Of a stretch of DNA of 64,000 nucleotides, positions 49,510 to 64,000 are shown in pieces. The stretch lies in assembly GCA_956465555.1 (NCBI GenBank), contig OY101115.1, forward strand, positions 1,178,001 to 1,242,000. The letters run 5' to 3'. The position numbers and the translations under genes were made by a program. The stretch is from Nitzschia sp. pyKryTriq1. Its lineage: Eukaryota; Bacillariophyta; Bacillariophyceae; Bacillariales; Bacillariaceae. The notes under the pieces were generated by a model. The model was not told the DNA's origin. It saw only the letters and a list, made by a program, of their open reading frames with translations, and ran no database searches. The stretch's first letter is position 1. Each line of letters opens with the position of its first letter.

Positions 49510-50694
49510 TTAACAACCTAAAGTAAGCACGTATTCATTCCATTCGAGGTAGTAAGACCGAGGGGCGGGGTGTAGGATTTGATCGGGAATGGTCGCTGTA
49601 ATGGTGTCGTCGGGGTTGATTTGTATAGTGAGGGGTCGGGAGTCGGAATCGGGGGACCACGGAGTGGAGTGTATGGGGATAAAAAGGGTGGGGTCGTAGG
49701 CATTGGGGTGATATTCCCAATAAGCGTCGTCGCGCCAATGGTAAATGATGGGCCACACTGATTTTGTGTAGTAGGTCTCCCGACGGAGGCGAGGTGTGGT
49801 GATCGTCCAGGGTCCTAATTGTACATCGGGGGCTGCTCGTCCGTCGTCGTAACTCCATTCGCGGCATAGGCGACGCCATGGTCTGTTGATTTGGTAAGTG
49901 CTCGGTCTGCGTTGGAGAGTAGTAATAACTGTGGGGTCAAACCACGCGGGCCGTTCGCAATGGAGCATGTGGGTCATTATGTTGGTGCCGGATGCGTCGA
50001 AAAGTTCAGACATGGTAGTGATGTGGAGATACAATCTGCAATAATTGATAATTGCTAGGTCTTCGGGTGAAAAACATTCCATGTGGATGGCGTGGTCCAT
50101 GAGACCAATGTCGCCGGTGCGTTCGAGGATAGGTAAGTAAGGTTGGGAGACTAGAATTTGACCGCCAATGTAGGCGAGAAATTCCCTGATGGCAATCAGC
50201 AATCGTTCCTTTAGTTCATCCGTGTCTGCGGTCTTGTGGTGCTCCTGGGTATAGAACGCGACGAAAGAGGCTTTAATGCCGTTCAAAAAGCCTCCTTTGT
50301 GGATGCGGAGATAGATGTGGCGAGCCGACAAATATTCCATCGTGCGCGATTTCAGGGTCGAAATCGGGGTCGTCGTTTTCATCTTGAATCCCATCGCTAC
50401 TTTGCGATTACGTCCTTCGGTTGTCTCCACGCAAAACGCTGCTTCGTACTGGGCGCTGGTGAGTACTTCGGTATCCTTGTATGGATGGTCCTTGGTATCG
50501 AGAATAACAAGGGAATGGCCCGCGGCATCCGTTAAAGTTTTAATCAAATCCTTGAAAATCACCGGTACGGGGACGGTTGACATCCCTTCTTCGACTCCTA
50601 TCTCCATCTTGAGATCGTACGAGTACACCTTTCCGCCGCCGGTACCATACTCCGCATTCGGGTACGTTGGAATAGTCGTCTCTAGAGTGGTCAT
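49510..50694 (-). CDS. Repeat-family ORF, possibly derived from a retroelement
   Basis: Single exon, 394 residues, start ATG at 50694. It contains MRIHKGGF-like (LRIHKGGFLNGIKASFVAFYTQEHH), GGQILVSQPYLPILERTG, INYCRLYLHITTMSELFD and RPSTYQINRPWRRLCREW blocks that I recall, loosely, from multi-copy diatom proteins that elsewhere continue into RNase H-like DG(S/A)xK domains. Here no RNase H or reverse transcriptase follows. The frame stays open after the stop for another ~22 codons (to a TAG near 49446), with Trp-containing coding-like sequence, so the stop at 49510 may be a nonsense change in a longer ancestral protein. Its Pro/Thr-rich end differs in composition from neighbouring genes. A host gene of unknown role is the alternative. 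Family naming is uncertain. Confidence 0.5.
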   Translation of the reverse strand: MTTLETTIPTYPNAEYGTGGGKVYSYDLKMEIGVEEGMSTVPVPVIFKDLIKTLTDAAGHSLVILDTKDHPYKDTEVLTSAQYEAAFCVETTEGRNRKVAMGFKMKTTTPISTLKSRTMEYLSARHIYLRIHKGGFLNGIKASFVAFYTQEHHKTADTDELKERLLIAIREFLAYIGGQILVSQPYLPILERTGDIGLMDHAIHMECFSPEDLAIINYCRLYLHITTMSELFDASGTNIMTHMLHCERPAWFDPTVITTLQRRPSTYQINRPWRRLCREWSYDDGRAAPDVQLGPWTITTPRLRRETYYTKSVWPIIYHWRDDAYWEYHPNAYDPTLFIPIHSTPWSPDSDSRPLTIQINPDDTITATIPDQILHPAPRSYYLEWNEYVLTLGC

Positions 50695-51199
50695 GGTAGT
50701 AAGATTTCTACGTAGGATTCCTACTGGCTTTCTACAGCTAAGTTTTTTGCACTTCAGCGTTCTCCACTTGTGGAAAAGTAGAAGAGCATGATACTACTAG
50801 ATTCCGTTCCAGATGATTATTTGTGTGGTGATTTCAAAAGACCGATTATGGTTACTATAAGCACTGGCACTGTACCGGTACTGACTGGGCTATCGCGGCA
50901 GCTGCAGTATGTACCAGTACCTGTAATATCGGCCCACCGGCACGAACCAGAGAATGGTTCTCTGGTACGAACCGATAGACTGTAGTAGACCTGTAGACTT
51001 CGAGGAGTGAGTCACTCTTGAGAGTCAGGTCACGAGCATTGAGTCGTACGCTTGAGAACTTGCACGCGATGAAAAGAGGCACTGGGATTTTCTCGTTATC
51101 TTCCTTCTGACTTTTCTGACATCGCGAATCGCGATGCCTTTTGTCTCTTCGATGACGATCGACGATTGACGATGACAACCCATTTCATTTCATACTCAA
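50695..51199. other. Divergent intergenic region
   Basis: About 500 bases between the repeat-family ORF and the prolyl hydroxylase gene. Contains TACCGGTA at 50873 and a GTAC-rich neighbourhood. No gene is seen. Confidence 0.5.
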
Positions 51200-52302
51200 A
51201 TGAAGTCATTGATCAAAGACGGCTCGTTTGGCGCGAAACATAAAAAAGCAATGGGTCTCAACGACGAGAATACCGCCAATGACACTACAGATGAAACAAG
51301 CGACGCAGTACTAATAAGGCCTCGAACCCGCGCCTGTGCATTGGAAGAAGAGCGGCTCCGAAAGGAAAAGGAGGCCAAGGAAAACGAGCCGAGAAGATCG
51401 AACCGCGACCATGATGTGAGTTACAAACAATGCAATCTTGGTTCATCAAACCTCTGGCCTCTATCCTCGGCGGCACTCACCACGCTAGCTGCTGTATCCG
51501 TTTCCAGTGTATTCGAGTCAAGGGCGGTGGGGCCTTTTACTGGCGGCTCGAGGCGCTCTTCTTCCTGCCGGCTCCGAACAAGTCTTGGAAAAGGGTTGGC
51601 GGTAACAGTCGCCTACAGCTTCGTCGGGTACATGGTCGTCCACATATTTACGAGATTGACAATTTCTTGATTGAATCCGAGCTGAAATATTTTGATGAGT
51701 TTATCCAAACTTGTCCCTTTCAAAAAAGTTTCGTCGACAATATGGAATTCGACAGTGTCGAGGCAAACCCAACAAACCCAGATGAGAAAAGCTCCAAGAG
51801 AAGACGACGGACGATCCTGGATTCCACCCACCGAACTAGCACCTTCTTCGGCTTCAAGCACCGAGCCAACGCTAGCATCCGTGCCATAGAACAGCGAACT
51901 GCTGACTTGCTCGGATGCTGGACACATCAATTGGAGGGCCTGCAGTTGGTGCGATATAGAGCGGGCGATTTCTTTGGTGTTCACCATGACCTTGGGGATT
52001 TACTTGACGATGATCAAGTCCAGTTGCCACCAAAACACTTTGCAGTCAAGCGACGACTCGTCACCATTTTCGTCTATTTGAACGACCTCGACAAGGGCCA
52101 GGGGGGATGTACCTACTTTCCAAAATGTGGCAATTTGCGTGTAACACCGAAAAGAGGAAAGGCTGTTTTGTGGAGCAACATAACGGCCGATGGTTATCCT
52201 GATCCAGGCACAATTCACGCCGGGGAAATGGTCAAGTCTACTAGTAGTGGCGACAACAGTGTTGTCAAGTACGGACTCAATATTTGGATTACAGAAGAGT
52301 AA
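51200..52302 (+). CDS. Prolyl 4-hydroxylase-type 2OG-Fe(II) dioxygenase
   Basis: Two exons, 51200-51415 and most likely 51508-52302 (92-nt intron), give 336 residues; a later acceptor after CCGAACAAG would remove ~16 residues. The catalytic domain has the iron ligands H231-x-D233 in FGVHHDLGD and H309 in GTIHAGEMV, and the 2-oxoglutarate lysine K326 in VVKYGLNIW, with the supporting VTIFVYLNDLDKGQGGCTYFP and GKAVLWSN motifs of the P4H family. The substrate may be a secreted hydroxyproline protein, relevant because diatom frustule proteins contain hydroxyproline, but the gene has no clear signal peptide: the N-terminus is Arg/Lys/Glu-rich, with a moderately hydrophobic stretch (AFYWRLEALFFLPAP) after the intron that might anchor it. 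The basic insert SSKRRRR is unusual. Confidence 0.88.
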
Positions 52303-52329: not shown

Positions 52330-54942
52330 CTATCGGAGGCTCTTGTTGCTCGAGCTTCTCTTCATGGAAGTGGTCTCCTCTGTAATGCGCCGGGAACTTC
52401 TGCGATCCTCCCTGGATCCATCCTTGTAACTTTCAAGGTCCCCAGCGCTCTTAGACTTTTTGATTTTTGTGCCCTGCTCCATATCTTCAAATATATCCCC
52501 AATAAGGGCGACCGCCTTTTTCTTTGAAGCCTCCACAGGTCGTCCTTTCTTATTAGTTCTGAAGTAACGTATATCACCGACCTCTTTCTTGATAAGTCTA
52601 TAGGCGTGTGGTCCGTAAGATTCATCCGGTGAGCTCTTTCGGAATTGCCGAATGGCCTTAACAAGTTTCTTGGTCCCGGGGTGGGACTCGTCGCCGAAAA
52701 TCACATCATACTTTTCAGGCTCAAGATCAGCAGACCCATCAGATATGCTCAATCCGCTCCTTGACGAGCTCTTTCTGTGCCGACCTGATCCTGCAGTAGA
52801 GTCCGTCTCGTCGCAGCCCAGCAGGAGACTTTTCGAGGAGGAGCTCTTTTTTGTAGTGTTGGATAGAACATTTTCATCTTTGGAAGACTTGAAATCTACG
52901 TTCACCTTGATATTTCCTTCGCTGTCCTTTTCGATTATCTCCTCATCGTCTCTCCGTTCAGAAAGGCAGGGGCAACACCAGCACCAAAGTAAAGAGCAGG
53001 CAATCGCGGCGAGGATCCCGACTAACACGCCAATGTACATGTATCTGTCATTAATCGGCTCCTCCACCCACCATTCGGAGACTTTTTGTTCGTATTGGCA
53101 CTTTTCTGAGAGCTCGTTCTTCGATTTCTTCTGCACTGGCGTGTTTACCCCCACTTCTACCATTCCTGCGATCGGGCTCCTTTGCCCACCCACCTGAAGA
53201 TGGCGAGATGTCGAGTGGGAACTCTCGAGGTTTCGTCGACGTGATAAAGCTAAACTCCAAAGGTCGTCTTCTTCCAGCAATGCATACTGCAGCACCACAT
53301 TACCTACACCCACCGCCTCGCCATCGGAAGTGTAGAAGTCTTCAGTGAATTGCGTCCGAAAAATACACATAGTTGCTCCATCAACACAGACGAGAATGGT
53401 AAACCCATCCTCAGCTTGACCACCCCCAACTTCTGCCGAAATTTGTGAGGCCCCCTCTGGGCTCGTCCAATTCCATGAATCCAGCCGGTTGATCGTCATC
53501 CCAAATTCATTGGATATTTCGTCCGGTGTGATGCAGATTTTCACAGACGCCCCCAGCGTCTTGGGAGATGGGTCAGGGATCTTTTTATTCTGGCTATCAC
53601 ACTCGTATGCCACGGCTCCAAACTTAAACTCTTCTCCAGGAGCGACAAAAAACTCAACATTAAATAGTGCCGACCCAGCAAAGCCGCCCTCAACATCCTG
53701 AAGACTCCGAGCGTGACGATTTCGGCCAGTAATTGCAAATTTCAACTTTCGAGAGGAGCCACTTCCAAACTACACGTACGGAGGGAAAGAATACAAAAGA
53801 AGCAGAATGAGTAATCGATCCAGTTGACGAATCATCGTTTCACCCCCCCCCCCCCCCCGCGCGCGACGTACCTGTAGCCACGCTTCTCCGTAACCAAAGA
53901 CACGACCAGTTCCGAAATAAAAGTCGGACTTTAGGAGCGTGTCAAAATGGCACAGCTCCCATCCACGCTCACAAAAGAGCTCCGTCAACGCCGGGTTTGC
54001 ACTTTCACCATCCGTCAACGCTATTTGAGTTACAGTTGCTCCAGCTGTTGGGTTGTCTCGCCAGTATGTGAAACTATCCACACGCCGCATATAAACTCCG
54101 TCCGCGAGGGCATCGTCGGTAGGTTTGACACAGACTTTGACCTTTTCTCCTTGCACAAGAGGATATAGGTACACGATTTCCTCTAAATTGTCGTCGCATA
54201 GAAACCCTTCTACAAAGTAATTTTGAAAAACATTTTCACTCCCTGGATCATTGGGCCTGGGGAAGCAGAGAGACACAGGAGTCAGTCAGCGAAACGATTC
54301 TTCCTCTGTCAAACCAAAGAGACTCTGGATGTGCTCGCCATTCACTCACAAGACATCCACCTCAACACCAAAGTCACCAACGAGATCCACCTGTAGACGC
54401 ACCACTGTTTCTAATGATGCCTTTTCCATGGTGGTCTCAGCATCTCCTTCATGAAGGCTCAAACTCATGCAGAAGTTCATGAAAAACTGTTTTTTCTCGT
54501 CTTGTACCCATACTTCTGTTTCTTGGATGGCTGTTGGATCGACGTCATATCTCACGGTAACCTGTCGATTCTTTGTACCATCGGGGGCTGGGTTGTCGTC
54601 GTAGATTATGCTTGGCACCAAAAAGTCATTCCCTGTAATGTTGGTTTCACAGTCTGCTAAAAAAGTTTGTGTGGAAACGCTGCCATCAGAAACTAGATCA
54701 TTCAGAGGGTAAATGAGCTGGATGACTGTTCCACCAAACGTTATTCTCGAGTCTCCAATCTGGAATCGGTCAAGTGCAGCAGCTTGAAGAATTCTTTGAA
54801 CATGGTTTCCACCACTCTCGGGGAAAATACTGTCCGATGATTCTTCTTGGATGTGAAATGGAGTTGCGGAGCACGTAATGAACCCCACAACGACCAGTAG
54901 CACTAAGAAAGCGGAAGTTGAAAAGGGGGTTGATTGCATCAT
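52330..54942 (-). CDS. Type I membrane protein with two 4-Cys repeats, silicanin-like; DUF6824-like tail
   Basis: Exons 54942-54350, 54256-53872 and 53769-52330 join in frame to 805 residues. Signal peptide (FLVLLVVVGFITCSA). Two copies of a ~140-residue domain follow, about 180-325 and 350-490, each with the pattern x-C-D ... V-x-[VI]-C-[VI] ... G-[VM] ... C-x-x-G/A-x-x-[LM]-C-x-F ... F-Y ... G-x-[GA]-x-x-x-L-Q. R-x-L-Q sites (QRILQ, RSLQ, RHLQ) sit at domain borders. A Trp-rich segment (SEWWVEEP) precedes one membrane helix at about 570-592 and a CWCCPC palmitoylation-like cluster. The cytosolic tail is Lys/Ser-rich and includes DVIFGDESHPGTKKLVKAI and YGPHAYRLIKKE, resembling the diatom domain DUF6824. 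Signal peptide, RxL, Cys repeats and single helix recall silicanins, silica-vesicle membrane proteins; that link is from memory of family layout. Confidence 0.78.
53843..53858. repeat. Poly-C run (poly-G on the coding strand) next to a splice donor
   Basis: Sixteen consecutive C followed by GCGCGCG. On the coding strand it reads CGCGCGC then G16, beginning about 13 nt after the exon 2 donor of the silicanin-like gene. Length may be inaccurate in assembly, and it could affect splicing through G-quadruplex formation. Confidence 0.85.
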
Positions 54943-55387
54943 GGTTAGTATAATATATGAGTATGAGTGTCGACGATCGACGACTCCTCACTCTATCCAA
55001 ATGTTGTCTTCATGAAGTTTGCGGCATGCGATCGCAGCGGGTCTCTTCATTCGCATCATCGCGTGTTTACGCGAGTATTCCTCATCACTCTCGTCGTACC
55101 TGGTCCTTTTTCGGAGAACCTTTTTGCCGTTGTAAGCAATTATGCCATGTACCTTCTCGGGTTTCGGAGAATTGTGTTGCTCCAGTCCCGCGGGAACTCT
55201 TTCTCTACTAATTTCTGGTGCTCTATTAGCTAGAGCTAGTAGGCTTGAGAGCTCTCTCTCTCTCAACATGGTCATAGTACAGATATGAAGCAGTCACTCT
55301 CTCTCTTACTCTTATAGAGTAGAGTCCCGAGAGCTAGTAACAGAAAATATAGAGCACGAGAGTGCTGTATCGTCTAATTTCTCGTCG

Positions 55388-55420
<33 letters not shown>

Positions 55421-55555
55421 CCAATCTACCGGTACAGTTGGTAGAGTAGCAAAGAATAAGATGTTGGGTGCGGTTTCGTTGAAAAATGGGGCGAACGATC
55501 CAAAGATTGAACTCTTCTTTCACTACTATCATCTATGCATGCAATTGCTCAATTA
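54943..55555. other. Intergenic region with (GA)n tract
   Basis: Upstream of the silicanin-like gene and 3' of the class C GPCR. It includes CTCTCT sequence at 55254-55264, a (GA)n microsatellite at 55389-55415 and TACCGGTA at 55427. Nothing gene-like is visible. Confidence 0.55.
55389..55415. repeat. (GA)n microsatellite
   Basis: About thirteen GA units just downstream of the class C GPCR gene end. Similar CT/GA tracts occur at 3525-3540 and 32673-32690, all intergenic. Confidence 0.9.
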
Positions 55556-58187
55556 TCACAGCTCGTCGGACCCTCCTGGCTCCGCTGTCATGCTGGGGTC
55601 ACCATTACTTTCCTGGGCACTCTCGTGCAGCAAATTTCCGCTCTCTTCTGGCGGCGCCGCCTTATCTACAGGAGGCTGCTGAAGTTCCGCGCTTTGAAAC
55701 GAGCTTTGAATTTTGGAAAGGGCGCCGCTTTTATTAAAACTTTGCGCGAGGCCTGAGATTCGACGACCATTCTCCACGAAGGGATCATCGTCGTTGTCCG
55801 AGGCAGTCAATTTTGGAAGGAAATATATCACACAAGTCATTATTTGATCGAGGGCGTAGATCAAACTGCGAGCGTAGTTGAGGGTGCTTCCCTGCACATT
55901 TCCTGTCAGTAGGAAGGTGACTATTCGAAGAACCACAAATACAAAGTGGGAATAAATCAAAAAGGCAAGGGTTCTTGACTCGTTGAACTGTTGGACTACA
56001 TTTCGAGACTGAAATGCCAGAACAGAAGCACACAACAGTAACAATGCATTCCATGATACTGCCGCGAAATCCCATGCATTGGTTGTACCACCACTGCAAT
56101 AGAACCGCTTATCCACGACGCTATCGCCATACTCGTTGGTGGATCCCGTCATGGAATATTCAGGTTGTTGCTGGGGAGGATTCAACGCGGTCCAGCACGC
56201 CAAATAAATGACAAGACAAAGTCCAATGAGCGCACTCGTCTTGTATAGAGCTTCCCGCTTGATCTTAATCCGCCGCAATTCTCTCGCTGCTTCCGTGAGA
56301 CGGTTGATAGCTGCGACCTTGACGATAAGTGGTACAAGCTCAACAGTATAACCCAGTTGAACGAACCAAATCGAGGCGATGCATGTGGCATCAGAAGCTG
56401 GCAGGCCCAATAAAATGGATCCGATTCCTACCAAAAATGAGCCTGTCAGCAAAAGAGACAAGAAGTCTAGTTGCGCGAATTGAATCGAACTCTTGTCTTT
56501 ATTTCGGTGAACACCCCAAGCTGTCAAGGCTACCACCAAAGTGGCGACACATCCAAAAGCAACTGCAACGGAACCAAACGGGACATGTGTTTCTTCCAAG
56601 GCCACACGTGGGTACGTTGGTGGGATGAATGAATTCAAAACTTCCCTGTTCTCCACGGCCCACTTGCAAACGGCATCGCGCGGGTTCGATTCGGACATCC
56701 AAAGTTCGAACAATTCCCCCAATTGAATTCCATCGATTTGAAACAGCCGCAGAACGTCGTAAGCGGGGTTGTGCGCCTCCTCCAAGATATCTGGTGACTC
56801 TAATATCTCTCTGAGCCCAACGTTGATAAGTTTACGCAGCGGCTCCACCGGATTATCACACGCTTCCTCGGGAGCGCCGACTCTGGTTTCCAGATCATCG
56901 GCGCACTCATCTTTCCACTCCACCCGCGCACGTGCACATTCTCGTGTATAAGGCTTCAATACCACTTTCTCAAGTTCGGCATCTGTACCCAGATATTGTT
57001 GATACAATGGTTCCGGTGACCACCAGGCCATCATGAGGTGAGACCGAGTAGCATTCGCTGCATGCCACATTTCCTTTAATTGATCTGCTGTGTACCCATT
57101 TGGACCACCATTTGGTCCATTGTTGGCATCCAAAGGAATTTTCATGTAGTACAGGTTTGATTTCATATTGCTTGACCATCCGCAGGGATAATTCGCAATA
57201 TGTCCAGTACAGTTGGTGGGATACATAGTACAATTATTCTTCTCAGTGTATCGAAAGTGTCCAGTGTAGAGGCCAGACTGAAACATTCGTGCTGCTTCAA
57301 TATCATCAAGGGGCGCACGCTTGACAACTAGGTCTGGCGTAGTACAATTGTCTAGCGAGACTAATTCACAATAGTCTTTCCATGTCGTCGGCCGTTTGAA
57401 TGTGGCTGCCAATCTTTCTCGATTTTCCTCTTTCTGGAGTCCATGATATGAGACAAACTCCGGAAACTCGTCCGCAGTAAACTTTGTCATGAACCACGTT
57501 TCTTCTCCCAAAAAGCCGATACCCTGCGGCGGTTCGATCTTTTGTTCCAGGACAAGTTCAAGGGGGTTGCCCCAGAACTCTGGATAAAAATGAGCACATG
57601 CCTGATATTTATCGTCCGATGTTGCGGGTGGCAGTGATCGGCAATCACCGTCGGGGAGTTCCGATGCCGTCACCAAGGGTTCTGGACTTACGCCTCTATC
57701 ATAATCTAAAATTTCAAACGAAAGTATTGAGTCGATACGCTACGCGAATCTGTCGCTATCCAATCCTCTGTAGATACTGACCTATTGCTCCCCGCGGATC
57801 GTAGAAGTCTCTAGAGGATCCGTACATATTTGATTCGATCGAAGACGGAACACCCAGCATTTCGCTGAGAACAATCTGCGTTAACCAGCCCAGCGCCGTT
57901 GCAGAATCCCAGTTTCCCGTTGCGATTCTGATTTCCATGTAATCAAAAGGATTTTTCCGGCAGAGTCCCTTTTCTAGAGCGTTTGGCGGGTCATATCGGT
58001 CTATGCAAACTCTTGGTTTCGTCCAGCCCTCCAGTTTTTGCTGCAGACAACCGCTAAAATAAGGATTGGTGATGTTGCTTTTAGATAGGTTCCTATTGCT
58101 TGCGTTGCCACTGGCTTTGAAGAACGCCGCCAGTAAAAGGACGACTCTGGTCACAGCAGCCGTTTTTTGTCTTGGTTTCATGTACAT
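55556..58187 (-). CDS. Class C (GABA-B-like) GPCR with periplasmic-binding-type ectodomain
   Basis: Two exons, 58187-57782 and 57705-55556, joined ATAG|GTCAGT ... TTTTAG|AT, giving 851 residues. Signal peptide (VVLLLAAFFKASG). The ectodomain (about 30-505) begins YMEIRIATGNWDSATALGWLTQIVLSEMLG, and later has LMMAWWSPEPLYQQYLGTDAELEKVVL; strand-helix order and the Trp-Ser-Pro-Glu-Pro segment resemble OpuAC glycine-betaine binding proteins rather than the usual Venus-flytrap domain of animal GABA-B receptors. Many cysteines and N-x-T/S sites fit an extracellular location. Seven helices follow from about 511 (VPFGSVAVAFGCVATLVVALTAWGV) to about 785, with GSTLNYARSLIYALDQIMTCVIYFLP as the last. 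The cytosolic tail is Ser/Glu/Pro-rich. It sits between two silicanin-like genes on the same strand. The ligand class is inferred. Confidence 0.83.
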
Positions 58188-59007
58188 TTTCTTTCTCCGG
58201 TTTCTTGTGTGTGTGGTGTGAGATATCCAGATTGACAGAGTCAGTCTTTTGCTCTCTCTCTCTCTACTCTGCTAGACGTTCGGTAGGTTTAGGTGGATGT
58301 GATACGTTCTGCCCCGCAGCGATCTGATGATGATGATGAAGAAGAAGATGACGATGATACTAACGATGATACTCGCTCGTAGAAGATAGAAGTGAAAAGG
58401 GGTTAGAAAAGACGCGATGCGCAGGTTAGGAGTCCCTCTACTATTATGCGTAGCGGTACCGGTAGTAGAGCGACGTGGCGCTCTGGACTCAATACAAGTA
58501 CTACTACACTACTACCGGTAGAGTTGTAGAATTCTCCCTCCCCCCCGGTCACTAAATACCAGTGCACCACTGTTCACTGTTGAGCACTAAATAATTCAAA
58601 TATGCCCTTCACAAGATCCTTCGCCCAACGGTTGTACCAGGTATGCATGGTACATACCGGTACGAGTATCATACTGTACCTGGTACGAGTAGTGGCGCAA
58701 CAGACGCAACGCATGGGGTAGGACTGAACTCAAGGACCACACTCCTCCTCTCGCACCCTCATCCGGCAACGTTTTCATGCTCCTGGCTCTTCACGTGGGG
58801 GTTCATAACCCAAACCATGGCGCATCACACTACGCAAAAGAGAGCTAAATGCTTAACCTCGCTTCATGTCGTAGCCAATCATATGGCTATTTGGAGCGTG
58901 CCCGAAAATCTCCGAGAGCCCGGCTTTCCAGCCACCGGAACGAGGCTACCTGGAAAGAAGCGATCGCGGTAATAGCTAAGAACAACTGTACAGAGACTGG
59001 AGTCAGC

Positions 59008-59270
59008 GGCATCGAGAGAGGAGGGTCCGCCCCAACGGCGCTATGGGTTTGGCCTATGGCTGCACGGTGGGGACCGACCGTATCCTCTTGATGCTGTTGT
59101 TGTTGTTGTTGTTGTTGTTGTCAATATGTACGTACGGGCATCGAGAGGAGGGTCCGCCCCAACGGCGCTATGGGTTTGGCCTATGGCTGCACGGTGGGGA
59201 TCGACCGTATCCTCTTGATGCTGTTGTTGTTGTTGTTGTTGTTGTTGTTGTCAATATGTACGTACGTACA
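59008..59270. repeat. 129-bp tandem duplication ending in (TTG)n
   Basis: Two copies begin GGCATCGAGAG at 59008 and 59137. They share the segment GTCCGCCCCAACGGCGCTAT through CCTCTTGATGCTG, a (TTG)n run of about nine or ten units and TCAATATGTACGTACG. Differences are a 2-base GA deletion and a C to T change, so the duplication is recent. Confidence 0.9.
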
Positions 59271-59435
59271 ACAATGTCTATTACTAGCGCTATCGCACGA
59301 ACGAATGTACAAAGATGTCTATTACTAGCGCTATCGCGTGAGTGAATGTACAATAATGTCTATTACTAGCGCTATCGCGTGAATGAATGTACAACAATGT
59401 CTATTACTAGCGCTATCGCGCGAACGAATTTACAA
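59267..59435. repeat. 41-bp minisatellite, four copies
   Basis: The core TCTATTACTAGCGCTATCGC recurs at 59277, 59318, 59359 and 59400, an exact 41-base period. Between cores the spacer varies (GTGAATGAATGTACAACAATG and close forms). Each unit contains the palindromic word AGCGCT. It directly follows the 129-bp duplication. Confidence 0.92.
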
Positions 59436-60173
59436 AGAAAGAAAGCTCACGAGACTCGGCGCCATCGCGCACATTCAGGCTAGTCCAACGGTCGTTATGG
59501 GGCACCCCAATTTTTGCGCGCACCTTTTTCGATAGTTTCCCTTTTTTCTTTCCCCCTTTTTTTCTCGGCCAGGAGCACTAAAAAAATGCCCCTCATCCCT
59601 CACCTTCCCACTCTCCGCCGCCTCTATTGCCACAAAACTTATTTTGCATCGTCCATATCATACATCATCACGCATTTAGCCTATGAAAGACCGCCAAAGG
59701 CAAAGAGAATACGTGTAGTCAACTCCCGTCTCCATGTCGTGCTGTGGGTAGACCTGGTACTTGTACCCCATTCAAAGATGGGGCATGGTGTCTTCTTGCC
59801 TTCAATAACAAGTCAGTCATGGGCGGGTCGTTCGTTCGTACGATACGCACGACGACTCTTCGACCGAGACCTATCTATTTGCTTCACTGTGTACTACTCG
59901 GAGACTAGTACGAATGGAAACGGTAGTCCAGAGCTACAGTACTACTTAAAAGACATGCCCCAGCTTGTCTCGAAGGATCGAAGCACTCTCTGGACCCATA
60001 GCCTTGTCGTCTTGCAAGTACGTACCTGTATAACTACACGTAGTCTTCAACGACCTAAACATTTTACACCAGGCCGATTCGTGACGAGATAACCGTCTCG
60101 ATAGCTAGACTATCTGCACTTGTAGAAGCAAAATATTAGACACTATTTCCCCAGCAGCACCAAAGCAAAGAAT

Positions 60174-62931
60174 CTAGAAGGGCAAGTCATCCGGCAACTT
60201 CAACTTCTTCTCCTTGTCCCCCACGGCCGCCCGTCGAGTACGCGCAGGTGCGCTTGCTGGCGCTTTCCTAACCGAAGAACGGTCCGAATTGTCGAGAGAG
60301 GCATGGCGTCCGCCGGGAGATTTGAGGTTGCGGGTGCTGGGCGACATGCCTGTTCTGGAGCTAGCTCCTCTTCGGGGCAAGGGAGACTTGGCACTAGACA
60401 CGGACCGCGCCGACGAGCCAGTTGAATCCATGGCTCGTTTCGAGCGTCGAGGCTTTGGGGACCGGGTGGAAGAAGTTGGAGACCTGGTGGAAGAATTGAG
60501 AGCCGAATCATTGAGCGACACCTTCCTTTTGGGAGACTTGGGAGACATGCTAGCCGAAGTCACCGTTCCGCCTCCCGGGTTAACCGACTTCTTCTTTCTG
60601 GGAGATTTGGGAGACATGCTAGCCGAAGCTGCAATTCCGTCTACATCGACCGACTTCTTTTTGGGCTTTGGGGATTTAGATGATCCACCCTTCGTTGAAT
60701 TTCTTCGTTTTGGCGACTTGGCGCTACCTGTATCATCAGCCGACATTCGTCGCGACGACTTCTTTTTTGGAGACCTTGGAGACTTGGAGTAATCGGGCTC
60801 AATTTTCGCAAAAGACTCGTGGAACGCGTTGGTGCCCGGTGTCGCAAAGTGCGCCGACTCAGCCTCTGGTACAGCATCCATGGGAGCATTCTCCAAGCGC
60901 CGACTGGCACTGATCGTATTGGTGTCGGCCGTTTCCCAGTCATTGGAAGTATCCCTATCTTGAGGTTCACCTTGATTGTTGGTAGAGTTCTCCTCGTCTC
61001 CCGCATCATTGCCCTTGTTTTGTCGCATAAAGACTGGCTGGATAAAGATTTTCCTCGACTTGCGCCCTTCTGGTACCGTCTTCCTTTTGGCAAAGGGATT
61101 ACCACAGCAAATAGCCCAGAGGAAGCACATCAAGATCAAAAACCCAATCACGGCAGCGAAAACATAGACAATTCGCAGGAAGAGAGGAGTGGTGTGCCAC
61201 CAGTCATCAGCCTTCTCTTGCCATGTCTGTTCCGAGGGAGGAATGTAGGTAGGATCCGTATCAAATTGAACTAGAACGTTGGTTCGGCCAGCAAAGCCTG
61301 CATCGACGGTCGGATCGGCTTCGCCGTCTTGCAAGCGACGACTGGTGCTTGTACTTGTATATGGCTCGGTCCCATACTGCAGCAATACCTCGCCCACGCC
61401 CACAACATTCATATTCTTGTCGTAGAATTCATCCGATAGGTGAATCTTGAAGGCGCACAACGGTTCTCCAGAATTGCAGATATACAGTGTGTTATTGGCC
61501 TGTAGGGCCGAGGGTTGTATGGCAAATTGGATGAGTTCACCTTGTTCAAAATAAAAGGATGAAATTTCTCGGACGTACACGCCCCGTTCTCGCGCTTCCT
61601 TGCTAGGCATGACACAGACCCGAATATCATCGTCCTTGTTACGCGATCGCGTCAGTTCGTTTCCCAGCAAGGGCAGGTTACGACCGTCACAAAGAAATGC
61701 AACGGCTTCCCAGTCCGTTCCCGACGGTTCGACTTCAAAGGTGAGACTAATATCTCGAGCTCCGATGAAACCACCTGCCTCCAGTGTTTGACGGTTCCAC
61801 ATTTCCAAGGGTGGTGCCAGCTGTGGCTGGGGCGATTCGTTCGAGACGCCGACTCGAAAGGGGACCTCAATGAGACCACGGCGTTCCCCGGCATATGCGT
61901 ACTGCAGCCAAGCGACTCCCTCCACTGACACCGACCCTCTAGAATAAAAGAAGCGGTTTGATACTTCCGTCGTCAGATGACAAACAACGTCACCAGGTGT
62001 ACAGCGATATTGCGTCATAATCAGATCTTTGATCACCCCATCCGGCACGATGACATCCTCCTCCACGTCTCCTCGAATGAGTTTGAATCGGTTGATGCTC
62101 TTCATCACCACACCAAATTCTCGTGTGAAGGAGTCGGGTTGGACGCACACACGGATACGAGCGCCCTGCGTTTTGAGGGCAGGTTCTAGAATTCGCTCGT
62201 TGTTGTCATCGCACTCAAAGGCTTCTGCGCCGTAATTGTCTTCCTCGTCCTCCAGAATGGCCAAAATTTCAAATCGTTGCGTAATATCGACGCGCACCGC
62301 GACGGGAGTATCCAGGAAATTCGCGACTTGACCGGGGTTACTGGGATCAATCAGGTTGAAGCGAGTGCAAAACGAAACGATCGGGTCTTCTGCGGTGTAA
62401 GTGATAATTCGCGAATTCCCAATAGTGGTGGGGTTGATATTGTAGTTCACAGAAATCTGTTAAGGACGAGCGACAGTGAGTTTTGTAAAAGCTTCCACGC
62501 ATCCCTCCATTCTACTTGTACCTTGATTTCAACAACCAATATACGAAACATACCTGTCGGGTCCCCGACCCGTCTCCAAATGCCGTCAAATCATTCACCA
62601 CATCCACTGCTAGGTAATTGTTGCTGCCTGCATCGATGGGAATAGAGCAAGCTTCATCCCGAAAGAGATCAATTCGAACATAGCTCGTTCGCACTTGGTC
62701 CCGGACGGTGTGCGTCAAATCCAGCTGCATCCCGGAGGTGCCCAGGACGGGCTCCGAAATATCCCAAAGACGGGAGGTAGATTGCAAGTCTCGCTGCTGA
62801 TGTTGGGAGAGATCCCGGGGCGGTGCCACCGACCCCATGACGCCGCCGCCGCTGCCCACCCAAAAAATATGCAGCATCCAGAAGAGCTGGCCTGCCGCCA
62901 TGGTGGTGCGCCAAGAAATCACCGTCTTCAT
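60174..62931 (-). CDS. Type I membrane protein with two 4-Cys repeats and SPK-rich tail, silicanin-like
   Basis: Exons 62931-62554 and 62456-60174 (phase 0, CAG|GTATGT ... AACAG|ATT) give 886 residues. Signal peptide at the start (TTMAAGQLFWMLHIFWVG), then QRDLQ, an RxL-type site. The same ~140-residue 4-Cys domain as in the gene at 52330 occurs twice, about 175-313 (AEAFECDD, IRVCVQP, YRC, VVCHL) and 356-488 (VAFLCDG, IRVCVMP, YICNSG, PLCAF), each ending G-V-x-x-L-Q-Y. RRLQDGE follows the second copy. Then EQTWQEKADDWWHTTP and a membrane helix at about 553-577. The cytosolic tail (~300 residues) is Ser/Lys/Pro-rich with many S-P-K-S-P and K-S-P units, typical proline-directed phosphorylation sites. 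Single-helix type I topology, RxL sites and Cys repeats suggest a silicanin-like silica-vesicle or surface protein; this remains inference. Confidence 0.78.
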
Positions 62932-63805
62932 TCTTTTCGTTCGTTGATAGACGTCTAGTCGAGTCAAGCAGCTTGATGGAAGTAAAGATGCTCCGACCGT
63001 GAACCAATTTTTACCGACTCTATTTTTTAAAACCCTACTCTGTATGAGCTTTGAGCTTTCAACGACGACGACGACGACAACGAAGGCGGAACTGGGAACT
63101 ATCCTGGGAAAATTGAAATGAAGATTATTTCTCCCCCGGTTCTTTATCTTGTGTTGTCTTATGTGGCAGCACTCAGCACTGTACAAGTTCGAGCACAGGT
63201 GGTAGGTAGTCAGTACGAAGAGTGGTGGGTACATCAACATTGCGGGGGACTAGTTTTAGAGGAAGAAGACTTTGACAGATATGGTACGGAGCGAAGCATG
63301 CATGGAGTTTGATAGCTTATTTTCTTTGTCAAGGAACTGATTTTAATGGTATGTTTTCGAAATTAATATTTATGACATGACCCTTAAGTAATTCTTCTCT
63401 AACAACCTGAAATACTTATAGGCATTCGTGACAAAAAGGCTTAAATGGAGCCGACCGGCGTGCCGAAACCACGAGTAGCATGCACTTTACGAGTAGTAGC
63501 CAATCCTGCATGCTTTCACCGGCTCGGTCCTAAACAAAGATGTCGATCGTTTATCTGCCTGGACTGCTTGCTTTTGCTTGCACCAAGAAAGTGGTACCGG
63601 TACTGTACTTGGACGTGCACCGTGGTAGTGTACGTGCCGGTACCTTGCTGCTTATATTTCCTTCCACAGCTACCGGTACAGTGGCTGCCTCTTGAGCTAC
63701 AAACCAAAAACCAAAACCAAAACTCTGCAAAGCACACCATCCATCTTTATCAAGAGGCGATTTTACCGGTATTGCTACATTTAAACTAGACTACGGACGA
63801 ACACC
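62932..63805. other. Divergent intergenic region between two silicanin-like genes
   Basis: About 870 bases shared by the divergent starts at 62931 and 63806. It contains a (CGA)n-like run at 63061-63077, TACCGGTA at 63595, 63671 and 63764 (the last 35 bases before the next ATG), and an AAACCAAAACC repeat near 63700-63722. No gene is seen. Confidence 0.6.
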
Positions 63806-64000
63806 ATGAAGTATTATTCGCTTTCCTTCTGGACGGCGGCCGTGCTCTTCGTGACAACAACTCACGCGGCGACGGCCGCGACGGAAGGAGACGATCGTCG
63901 TGATTTGCAATCGTCCAATCCGCGAGTCATCGCCGAAGCCTATGAATGTGATGAATACCTTCAAATTCTACCGGAAGAAGTTCGCAAGGCCCCGAAACCT
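63806..64000 (+). CDS. Start of a third silicanin-like family member (partial, runs off window end)
   Basis: The ATG at 63806 begins a signal peptide (MKYYSFSFWTAAVLFVTTTHA), followed by GDDRRDLQSSN, the same R-x-L-Q site just after the signal as in the gene at 60174 (QRDLQSTS). The next residues, AEAYECDEYLQILP, match the opening of the 4-Cys domain (AEAFECDDNNERIL). Only 65 codons are inside the window. It is divergently transcribed from the 60174 gene. Family membership rests on these two matches in the right order. Confidence 0.65.
   Translation, partial: MKYYSLSFWTAAVLFVTTTHAATAATEGDDRRDLQSSNPRVIAEAYECDEYLQILPEEVRKAPKP

Follow-up and report, generated by a model that had tools for sequence, protein, structure and literature searches.

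What do three neighboring genes of the diatom Nitzschia sp. pyKryTriq1 encode, and what might the cysteine-bearing domain that they share do at the membrane? The genes lie near one end of a 64,000-nucleotide stretch (GenBank assembly GCA_956465555.1, contig OY101115.1, positions 1,178,001 to 1,242,000), which we call the window (G000:C1:1178001-1242000 of the 40.65-Mb, 20-contig genome searched here). An earlier note, made from the DNA letters, had proposed that they form a silicanin-like system. We call the genes A, B, and C and their common domain the CRD. Our tentative answer, which stops just short of probable, is that they belong to a ZP-like family of the cell surface or wall matrix whose assembly is gated by cleavage at an RXL motif.

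Gene models and domain organization

The genes start at ATG codons at 54942 (A) and 62931 (B) on the reverse strand and at 63806 (C) on the forward strand, where the earlier note placed them. Gene A (52330..54942) has three exons (54942..54350, 54256..53872, and 53769..52330) and two introns (54349..54257 and 53871..53770). Gene B (60174..62931) has two exons (62931..62554 and 62456..60174) and a single intron (62553..62457), giving a spliced product of 886 residues; the introns of both genes were picked by GT/AG sites, open frame, and homology. Gene C is one unspliced frame of 437 residues that runs beyond the window end. Its first 65 codons (63806..64000) hold the signal peptide, RDLQ at 63899, and the start of the CRD, and the remainder, to G000:C1:1243119, holds the rest of the CRD, an RXL linker, a transmembrane (TM) helix, and a DUF6824-like tail. 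Genes B and C are divergent, with start codons 874 bases apart. Relatives of gene B (P0011) and gene C (P0036) lie on 7782-base contigs, both jgi, and the divergent pair may be conserved in them.

A type I layout of signal peptide, RXL, and single TM helix, each assigned by sequence inspection, fits all three proteins and supports a surface or secretory-membrane system, a surface system being one of the options of the note. The hydrophobic helix lies at 52972..53043 in A and 61104..61181 in B, is also present in C, and appears as a helix in the structure model of P0008, a relative of gene B. Ahead of their CRDs, A and B carry an N-terminal domain (54352..54774 in A; 62554..62769 in exon 1 and 62262..62456 in exon 2 of B), which gene C lacks. 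The CRDs number two in A (53872..54225, which stops at an exon boundary, and 53287..53628; independent E values [i-Evalues], 1.9e-33 and 1.5e-20), two in B (61902..62240 and 61377..61718, the latter at 2.4e-24), and one in C. Each is followed by an RXL linker and then by a further strand.

All five CRDs have exactly four cysteines, as the note had counted, and all are recovered at i-Evalues of 1.5e-20 to 5.2e-39 by a CRD profile that included no window sequence but did include orthologs of B and one of C. Two domains per protein, as the note had it, is right for A and B and wrong for C. It had also seen the signal peptide and the single helix while overlooking the N-terminal domain of A and B, the RXL linker, and the extra strand.

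The domain is widespread in this genome. Gene B matches many other loci (best E value, 2.2e-27), and a profile search of the window and 21 loci matched by gene B returned 30 rows. Discounting 3 that overlapping loci had produced twice, these amount to at least 27 CRDs, spread over 23 genes. Exactly four cysteines occur in 24 of the 27; the exceptions are one CRD with six and two truncated CRDs with two and three. The N-terminal domain has two conserved cysteines in the family alignments, giving with the CRD a 2 + 4 pattern. Layouts vary: a locus at 349 to 351 kb of contig C3 would carry three CRDs if its two frames are one gene, C8:453k shares the gene C layout of one CRD, TM helix, and tail, and C1:4086k and C3:2942k each hold a 212-residue frame with no obvious anchor.

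Local duplication, suggested in the note, is not borne out. On the CRD tree, the five window copies need 5 label changes (shuffle mean, 4.7), a single origin is recovered in 0% of the 200 bootstrap trees, and CRD2 of gene A groups with a locus on another contig (support, 97/94); most forks of this tree are weak and its bootstrap is not settled. Some kinship is indicated by B CRD1, whose highest identity is to the CRD of C (38%), and by gene C, for which A is the strongest match elsewhere in the genome (E value, 5.6e-25).

The CRD is predicted to fold like ZP-C

We used two structure models, one of gene C and one of P0008, a relative of gene B rather than window gene B itself. In both, the top ZP row of the fold search led the top non-ZP row by 3.5 Z units, and for one model ZP entries occupied the first ten rows. 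Endoglin and betaglycan were among the best matches. The models thus give good support to a predicted CRD fold like that of ZP-C, the filament-forming immunoglobulin (Ig)-type domain of animal egg-coat proteins. Besides this fold, two further features of ZP module proteins are found: a precursor anchored by a TM helix (A, B, C, and P0008) or by glycosylphosphatidylinositol (GPI), as GPI-like relatives suggest, and a protease-type motif, seen as a motif only, between the domain body and the last strand.

Several observations weigh against a ZP-like module. The N-terminal domain matched ZP-N only within one alignment of root mean square deviation 17.1, and it has two conserved cysteines versus four in ZP-N; gene C has no such domain at all. 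ZP rows made up 5 of 50 in one fold search, followed by antibody-type rows from an E value of 8.7e-4. For the longer model, uromodulin came at rank 28 in Foldseek, behind a CfaB pilin fusion and antibodies. In another fold search, antibody rows cover the last strand too. Generic Ig likeness contributes to the ZP match. At sequence level, the complete Pfam tables held no ZP model for the window open reading frames (E value ≤ 1) or for the family members P0016 and P0008 (E value ≤ 10), nor did Pfam scans of other members among the best 25 of 40 and 25 of 29 families. PF00100 found nothing in the genome at an E value of ≤10, in a search without a positive control, and profile searches of PDB sequences gave no ZP match. 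No sequence-level link to ZP proteins was thus found, and convergence and ancient origin are both possible readings of the likeness.

More generally, the CRD genes matched no family over the cut-off in Pfam, NCBIfam, and PDB sequence searches, for some members among the best 25 of 40 and 25 of 29 Pfam families. Weaker candidates were rejected. Imp-YgjV on the exon 1 frame of gene B (E value, 0.0026, under the cut-off) and DUF3854 in one gene C relative (E value, 0.00013) were judged chance matches. One PDB profile search returned a single row, FliL (E value, 0.13), on the transmembrane part. A further 23 PDB chains up to an E value of 10 (sodium channels from 0.00012, CBF5, and others) all fell on profile positions 361 to 578 and were discarded because we took them for chance matches of the low-complexity tail. 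A search for viral folds was uninformative: it brought up phage proteins and glycoproteins, those of herpesvirus among them, all with a low TM-score.

An RXL motif precedes the last strand

The stretch that joins the first CRD to the strand after it holds R-x-L in 77 of 81 aligned proteins. When these linkers were shuffled 2000 times, the mean was 23.0 and the maximum 35. Its density is 46.4 per 1000 residues in the linker versus 1.9 in the preceding part. The alignment held 82 proteins (68 of the 120 listed family matches described below and 14 of 15 from the gene B search), of which P0014 was removed because it is gapped at the anchor column; the count was confined to the linker that follows the first CRD. 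Among the gene C type, all 20 sequences keep R167 and L169 unchanged.

The motif is present in every one of the five linkers of A, B, and C. In gene A, linker 1 (53635..53769; RKL and RSL) leads into a G-strand-like GFAG...FNVEFFV segment, and linker 2 (53143..53286; RNL and RHL) is followed by the terminal strand. In gene B, linker 1 (61722..61901; RGL) precedes the strand GFIGARDISLTFEVEPS, which is present in the P0008 model, and linker 2 (61254..61376; RRL) precedes GFAGRTNVLVQFDTD; gene C has RQL and REL. RXL is known as a processing site of biosilica-associated proteins whose protease is unknown, according to PMC5525289 and PMC5647440. From the position of the motif, a cutting site directly ahead of the last CRD strand is likely.

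The motif is not uniform across the family, and this tells against a gating role. It is found in 68 of 68 GPI-like proteins and in 9 of the 13 proteins that resemble gene B in type, so that all four proteins lacking it in the linker (P0003, P0005, P0009, and P0010) are of the gene B type; the second linker of P0008 also lacks it, and the shuffles take no account of relatedness. These counts by type lowered our confidence in RXL-gated assembly slightly, from evenly balanced to just below, and marginally lowered that in its strongest form, set out below. They also raised somewhat the standing of convergence among small beta sandwiches.

Cytoplasmic tails

The tails measure 213 residues in A, 309 in B, and about 162 in C. 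That of gene B (60177..61103) is basic and repetitive, with KSPK repeats, and the tail in the P0008 model has low confidence (disordered). The basic tail described in the earlier note thus fits B; C has an acidic one (38 D+E versus 23 K+R of 162). The products of A, C, and the C3:349k gene share a conserved C-terminal cytoplasmic domain that contains HPGT (52474..52713 in A), and D-x-C-F...HPGT is among the invariant parts of the 20-sequence gene C type alignment. Aligned by hhalign, 23 tails (A included) matched 30 DUF6824 loci of the same genome with a score of 33.9 (P value, 9.3e-6), colinear over 80 columns; 100 column permutations reached at most 21.5, and a CRD control scored 13.0. By this alignment, the tails of A, C, and their relatives are a distant branch of DUF6824. 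Pfam did not report DUF6824 for the gene A frames or P0016, nor for the other 19 members among the best 25 of 40 families.

DUF6824 itself is very strongly expanded: with 150 of 237 candidates scored, the genome has no fewer than 150 places for it. We found no mention of it in the open-access literature searched. The HPGT tail domain also occurs apart from CRDs, at C13:616855-618684, C5:415759, and C12:134226, and one 1174-residue frame carries it three times.

A large family beyond this genome

Gene B has 14 relatives and gene C 22 (own entries excluded). Six of the former are 64 to 80% identical to gene B, and a further gene B row, P0014, is 65% identical over 46% of the query; among the gene C relatives, a named one is from Nitzschia sp. 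Nitz4. A profile built on eight members from the genome, spanning the N-terminal domain and CRD, matched 174 clusters at an E value of ≤0.001, in a search that scored only candidates sharing most words and with lengths 0.55 to 1.75 times the query. Layout and naming refer to 120 of the 174. Among the matches listed, most are unnamed metagenome proteins, the named ones being from a Bacillariaceae metagenome-assembled genome and an MMETSP transcript. By a hydrophobicity rule, 119 of the 120 have a GPI-like end, and the remaining one is cut short. The main layouts are an N-terminal domain, CRD, and GPI-like end; an N-terminal domain, two CRDs, TM helix, and tail; and one CRD, TM helix, and tail. 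This is very probably a large unnamed diatom family. With the gene C type alignment, 59 pattern matches in viral contigs and 45 in genome contigs were examined for a viral or prokaryotic origin, and none was confirmed. We saw nothing on the CRD family in passages of the Seminavis mating paper PMC8027222.

Some members stand out. In P0118, a CUB domain, with a Pfam score over the cut-off, is joined to the CRD; CUB and ZP pairing also occurs in animal ZP proteins. P0137 has DUF7640 just below the Pfam cut-off, and the loci L035 (C17:515k) and L042 (C8:27k) have additional N-terminal sequence (CHRTC...NPWVRITID) that Pfam does not match. P0080 carries in nr the label Geosiphon pyriformis, a fungus, which may reflect algal contamination of that assembly. 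Seven GPI-type copies are 90 to 99% identical to P0039 (C9:208241-324671, C2:234696, and C3:269679), five of them across 116 kb of C9 with fragments in between; judged by these identities, they are a recent amplification.

Proposed assembly and alternative explanations

The final ZP-C strand of uromodulin and ZP3 lies in a C-terminal propeptide that blocks polymerization until released by a protease, and this control depends on membrane anchoring (PMC7737619). The RXL motif, last strand, and anchor follow the same order here, and on this order we base a mechanism. Genes A, B, and C would encode membrane-anchored proteins of the outer surface or secretory lumen built on a ZP-like module, with the N-terminal domain of A and B in the ZP-N place. 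A flexible RXL linker would join the CRD to its last (G) strand, followed by the helix or GPI signal, and the anchored precursor would be kept inactive by its own last strand. Once a diatom RXL protease cut the linker, the domain would lose that strand and could accept one from another subunit, forming filaments or a matrix at the membrane, either at the cell surface or in the silica vesicle. A and C, with their conserved cytoplasmic domain, may be membrane-linked or signalling members. Within this proposal, the kinship of the family members, their domain layout, and the place of RXL are shown and the fold is a prediction; that the linker is cut, the strand let go, and filaments built, and where in the cell, is inferred.

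In its strongest form, the proposal would be a ZP-type polymerization of the diatoms' own, ancient or convergent, in which an RXL protease takes the role of furin or hepsin, the cut frees the last strand of anchored precursors so that a matrix of the cell surface or frustule assembles by strand exchange, and DUF6824-tailed members keep the cell informed of the state of that matrix. So much in one chain is doubtful. A ZP-like module in so large an algal family would in itself bring the ZP assembly principle to silica-walled algae, name a domain unrecognized by our Pfam scans, and offer RXL, long seen in wall proteins, a function open to testing, in which it sets a strand free and assembly begins.

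The proteins could instead be non-polymerizing surface receptors or adaptors, in which the CRD captures a ligand in the manner of betaglycan and endoglin, RXL serves ectodomain shedding, and the DUF6824-like tail signals. The fold matches to those two proteins speak for such a role, as do the conserved cytoplasmic domains of A and C with their invariant motif, the occurrence of the tail domain apart from CRDs, and the missing N-terminal domain of gene C. We nevertheless judge it unlikely: the GPI-like relatives have no cytoplasmic part, the tail of gene B is repetitive and that of P0008 predicted to be disordered, and the placement of RXL before the last strand is left unexplained. The predominance of GPI-like ends is to be read with the limit on length in mind, because of which long-tailed members were under-sampled.

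Ordinary Ig-like adhesion or wall-linker proteins are improbable to a similar degree. Their ZP likeness would be a convergence of small beta sandwiches, and RXL would be a mere release site, as proposed for other biosilica-associated proteins. Both the lead of ZP over non-ZP rows, in the two models and in the first ten rows of one, and the order of RXL, last strand, and GPI or TM anchor, which copies ZP precursors, argue against this. Were the ZP likeness convergence only, this would still be a large surface family of mostly uniform, cleavable-looking architecture.

Silicanins are defined by 18 position-conserved cysteines, a lumenal region rich in N and Q, and a cytosolic tail of 20 residues (PMC5525289). 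Lumenal cysteines number 10 in B and 4 in C; lumenal N+Q is 9.9% in B and 8.9% in C, with no run of three or more (A was not counted), and the tails of all three genes far exceed 20 residues. B and C thus lack three published features, and we rejected membership by that definition. The earlier note had itself named a known unrelated fold as an outcome that would speak against its idea, and we dropped the assignment because the domain matches another known fold, the predicted ZP-C. That these are silicanin-type proteins of the silica deposition vesicle is therefore very improbable, even though signal peptide, RXL, and single helix agree, as the note observed, and silicon transporters are encoded in the genome. 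This judgement concerns membership, and the proteins may still lie in the silica vesicle. The silicon transporter family has 8 places in the genome, seven of them matching nearly the full length of the family. Five are on C1 (C1:79892-317295), three of them within about 10 kb (307 to 317 kb).

Neighboring genes

Genes A and B are separated by a class C seven-transmembrane receptor gene, a correction to the cluster described in the note. This G protein-coupled receptor-like gene (55556-58271, reverse strand) matches 7tm_3 at an E value of 1.2e-29 on the 55556-57739 frame. Convergent to gene A, with ends 27 bases apart, is a 2-oxoglutarate-Fe(II) oxygenase (51415-52302, forward strand; PF13640 E value, 8.7e-9) that is prolyl 4-hydroxylase-like by eye. 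A 427-residue open frame at 49510-50793 (reverse strand) has no Pfam match at an E value of ≤0.01.

Comparison with known systems

ZP modules are described as conserved "from hydra to humans" (PMC7737619), and we found no report of ZP proteins in diatoms among the titles and abstract openings listed from the open-access literature searched or in passages of PMC3879662, PMC5741210 (a reference only), and PMC7737619 (which mentions diatomaceous earth). The family resembles uromodulin, ZP1-4, and GP2 in its predicted ZP-C-like fold, a further domain ahead of it, and a GPI-like or TM anchor, and it resembles animal ZP-module proteins generally in having a protease-type motif between the domain body and the last strand. 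It differs from them in showing no detectable sequence similarity and in having RXL where they have furin or hepsin sites. Also unlike them, it has an N-terminal domain with two conserved cysteines, tandem ZP-C-like domains (two in A and B, three at C3:349-351k), and, in some members, a conserved cytoplasmic domain.

Betaglycan and endoglin are single-pass receptors, and as well as being among the best fold matches they share a receptor-like single-pass layout with our proteins; they differ in lacking the DUF6824-like tail and RXL linker found here, and no sequence similarity to them was found. The cytoplasmic domain of A, C, and their relatives aligns with DUF6824 (PF20710) along the whole domain, although single-sequence Pfam scans miss the tails.

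Closer to home, silicanin-1 shares the signal peptide, RXL, type I single helix, and lumenal cysteines; it has 18 cysteines, an N/Q-rich lumen, and a 20-residue tail, where A, B, and C have long tails and four cysteines to each domain. The silicalemma associated proteins (SAPs) likewise have a signal peptide, RXL, one helix, and a conserved cytoplasmic part; as described in PMC5647440, their lumenal part is serine rich and a 28-residue conserved segment follows directly after the helix, whereas our proteins have folded CRDs and a domain of about 80 residues set off from the helix.

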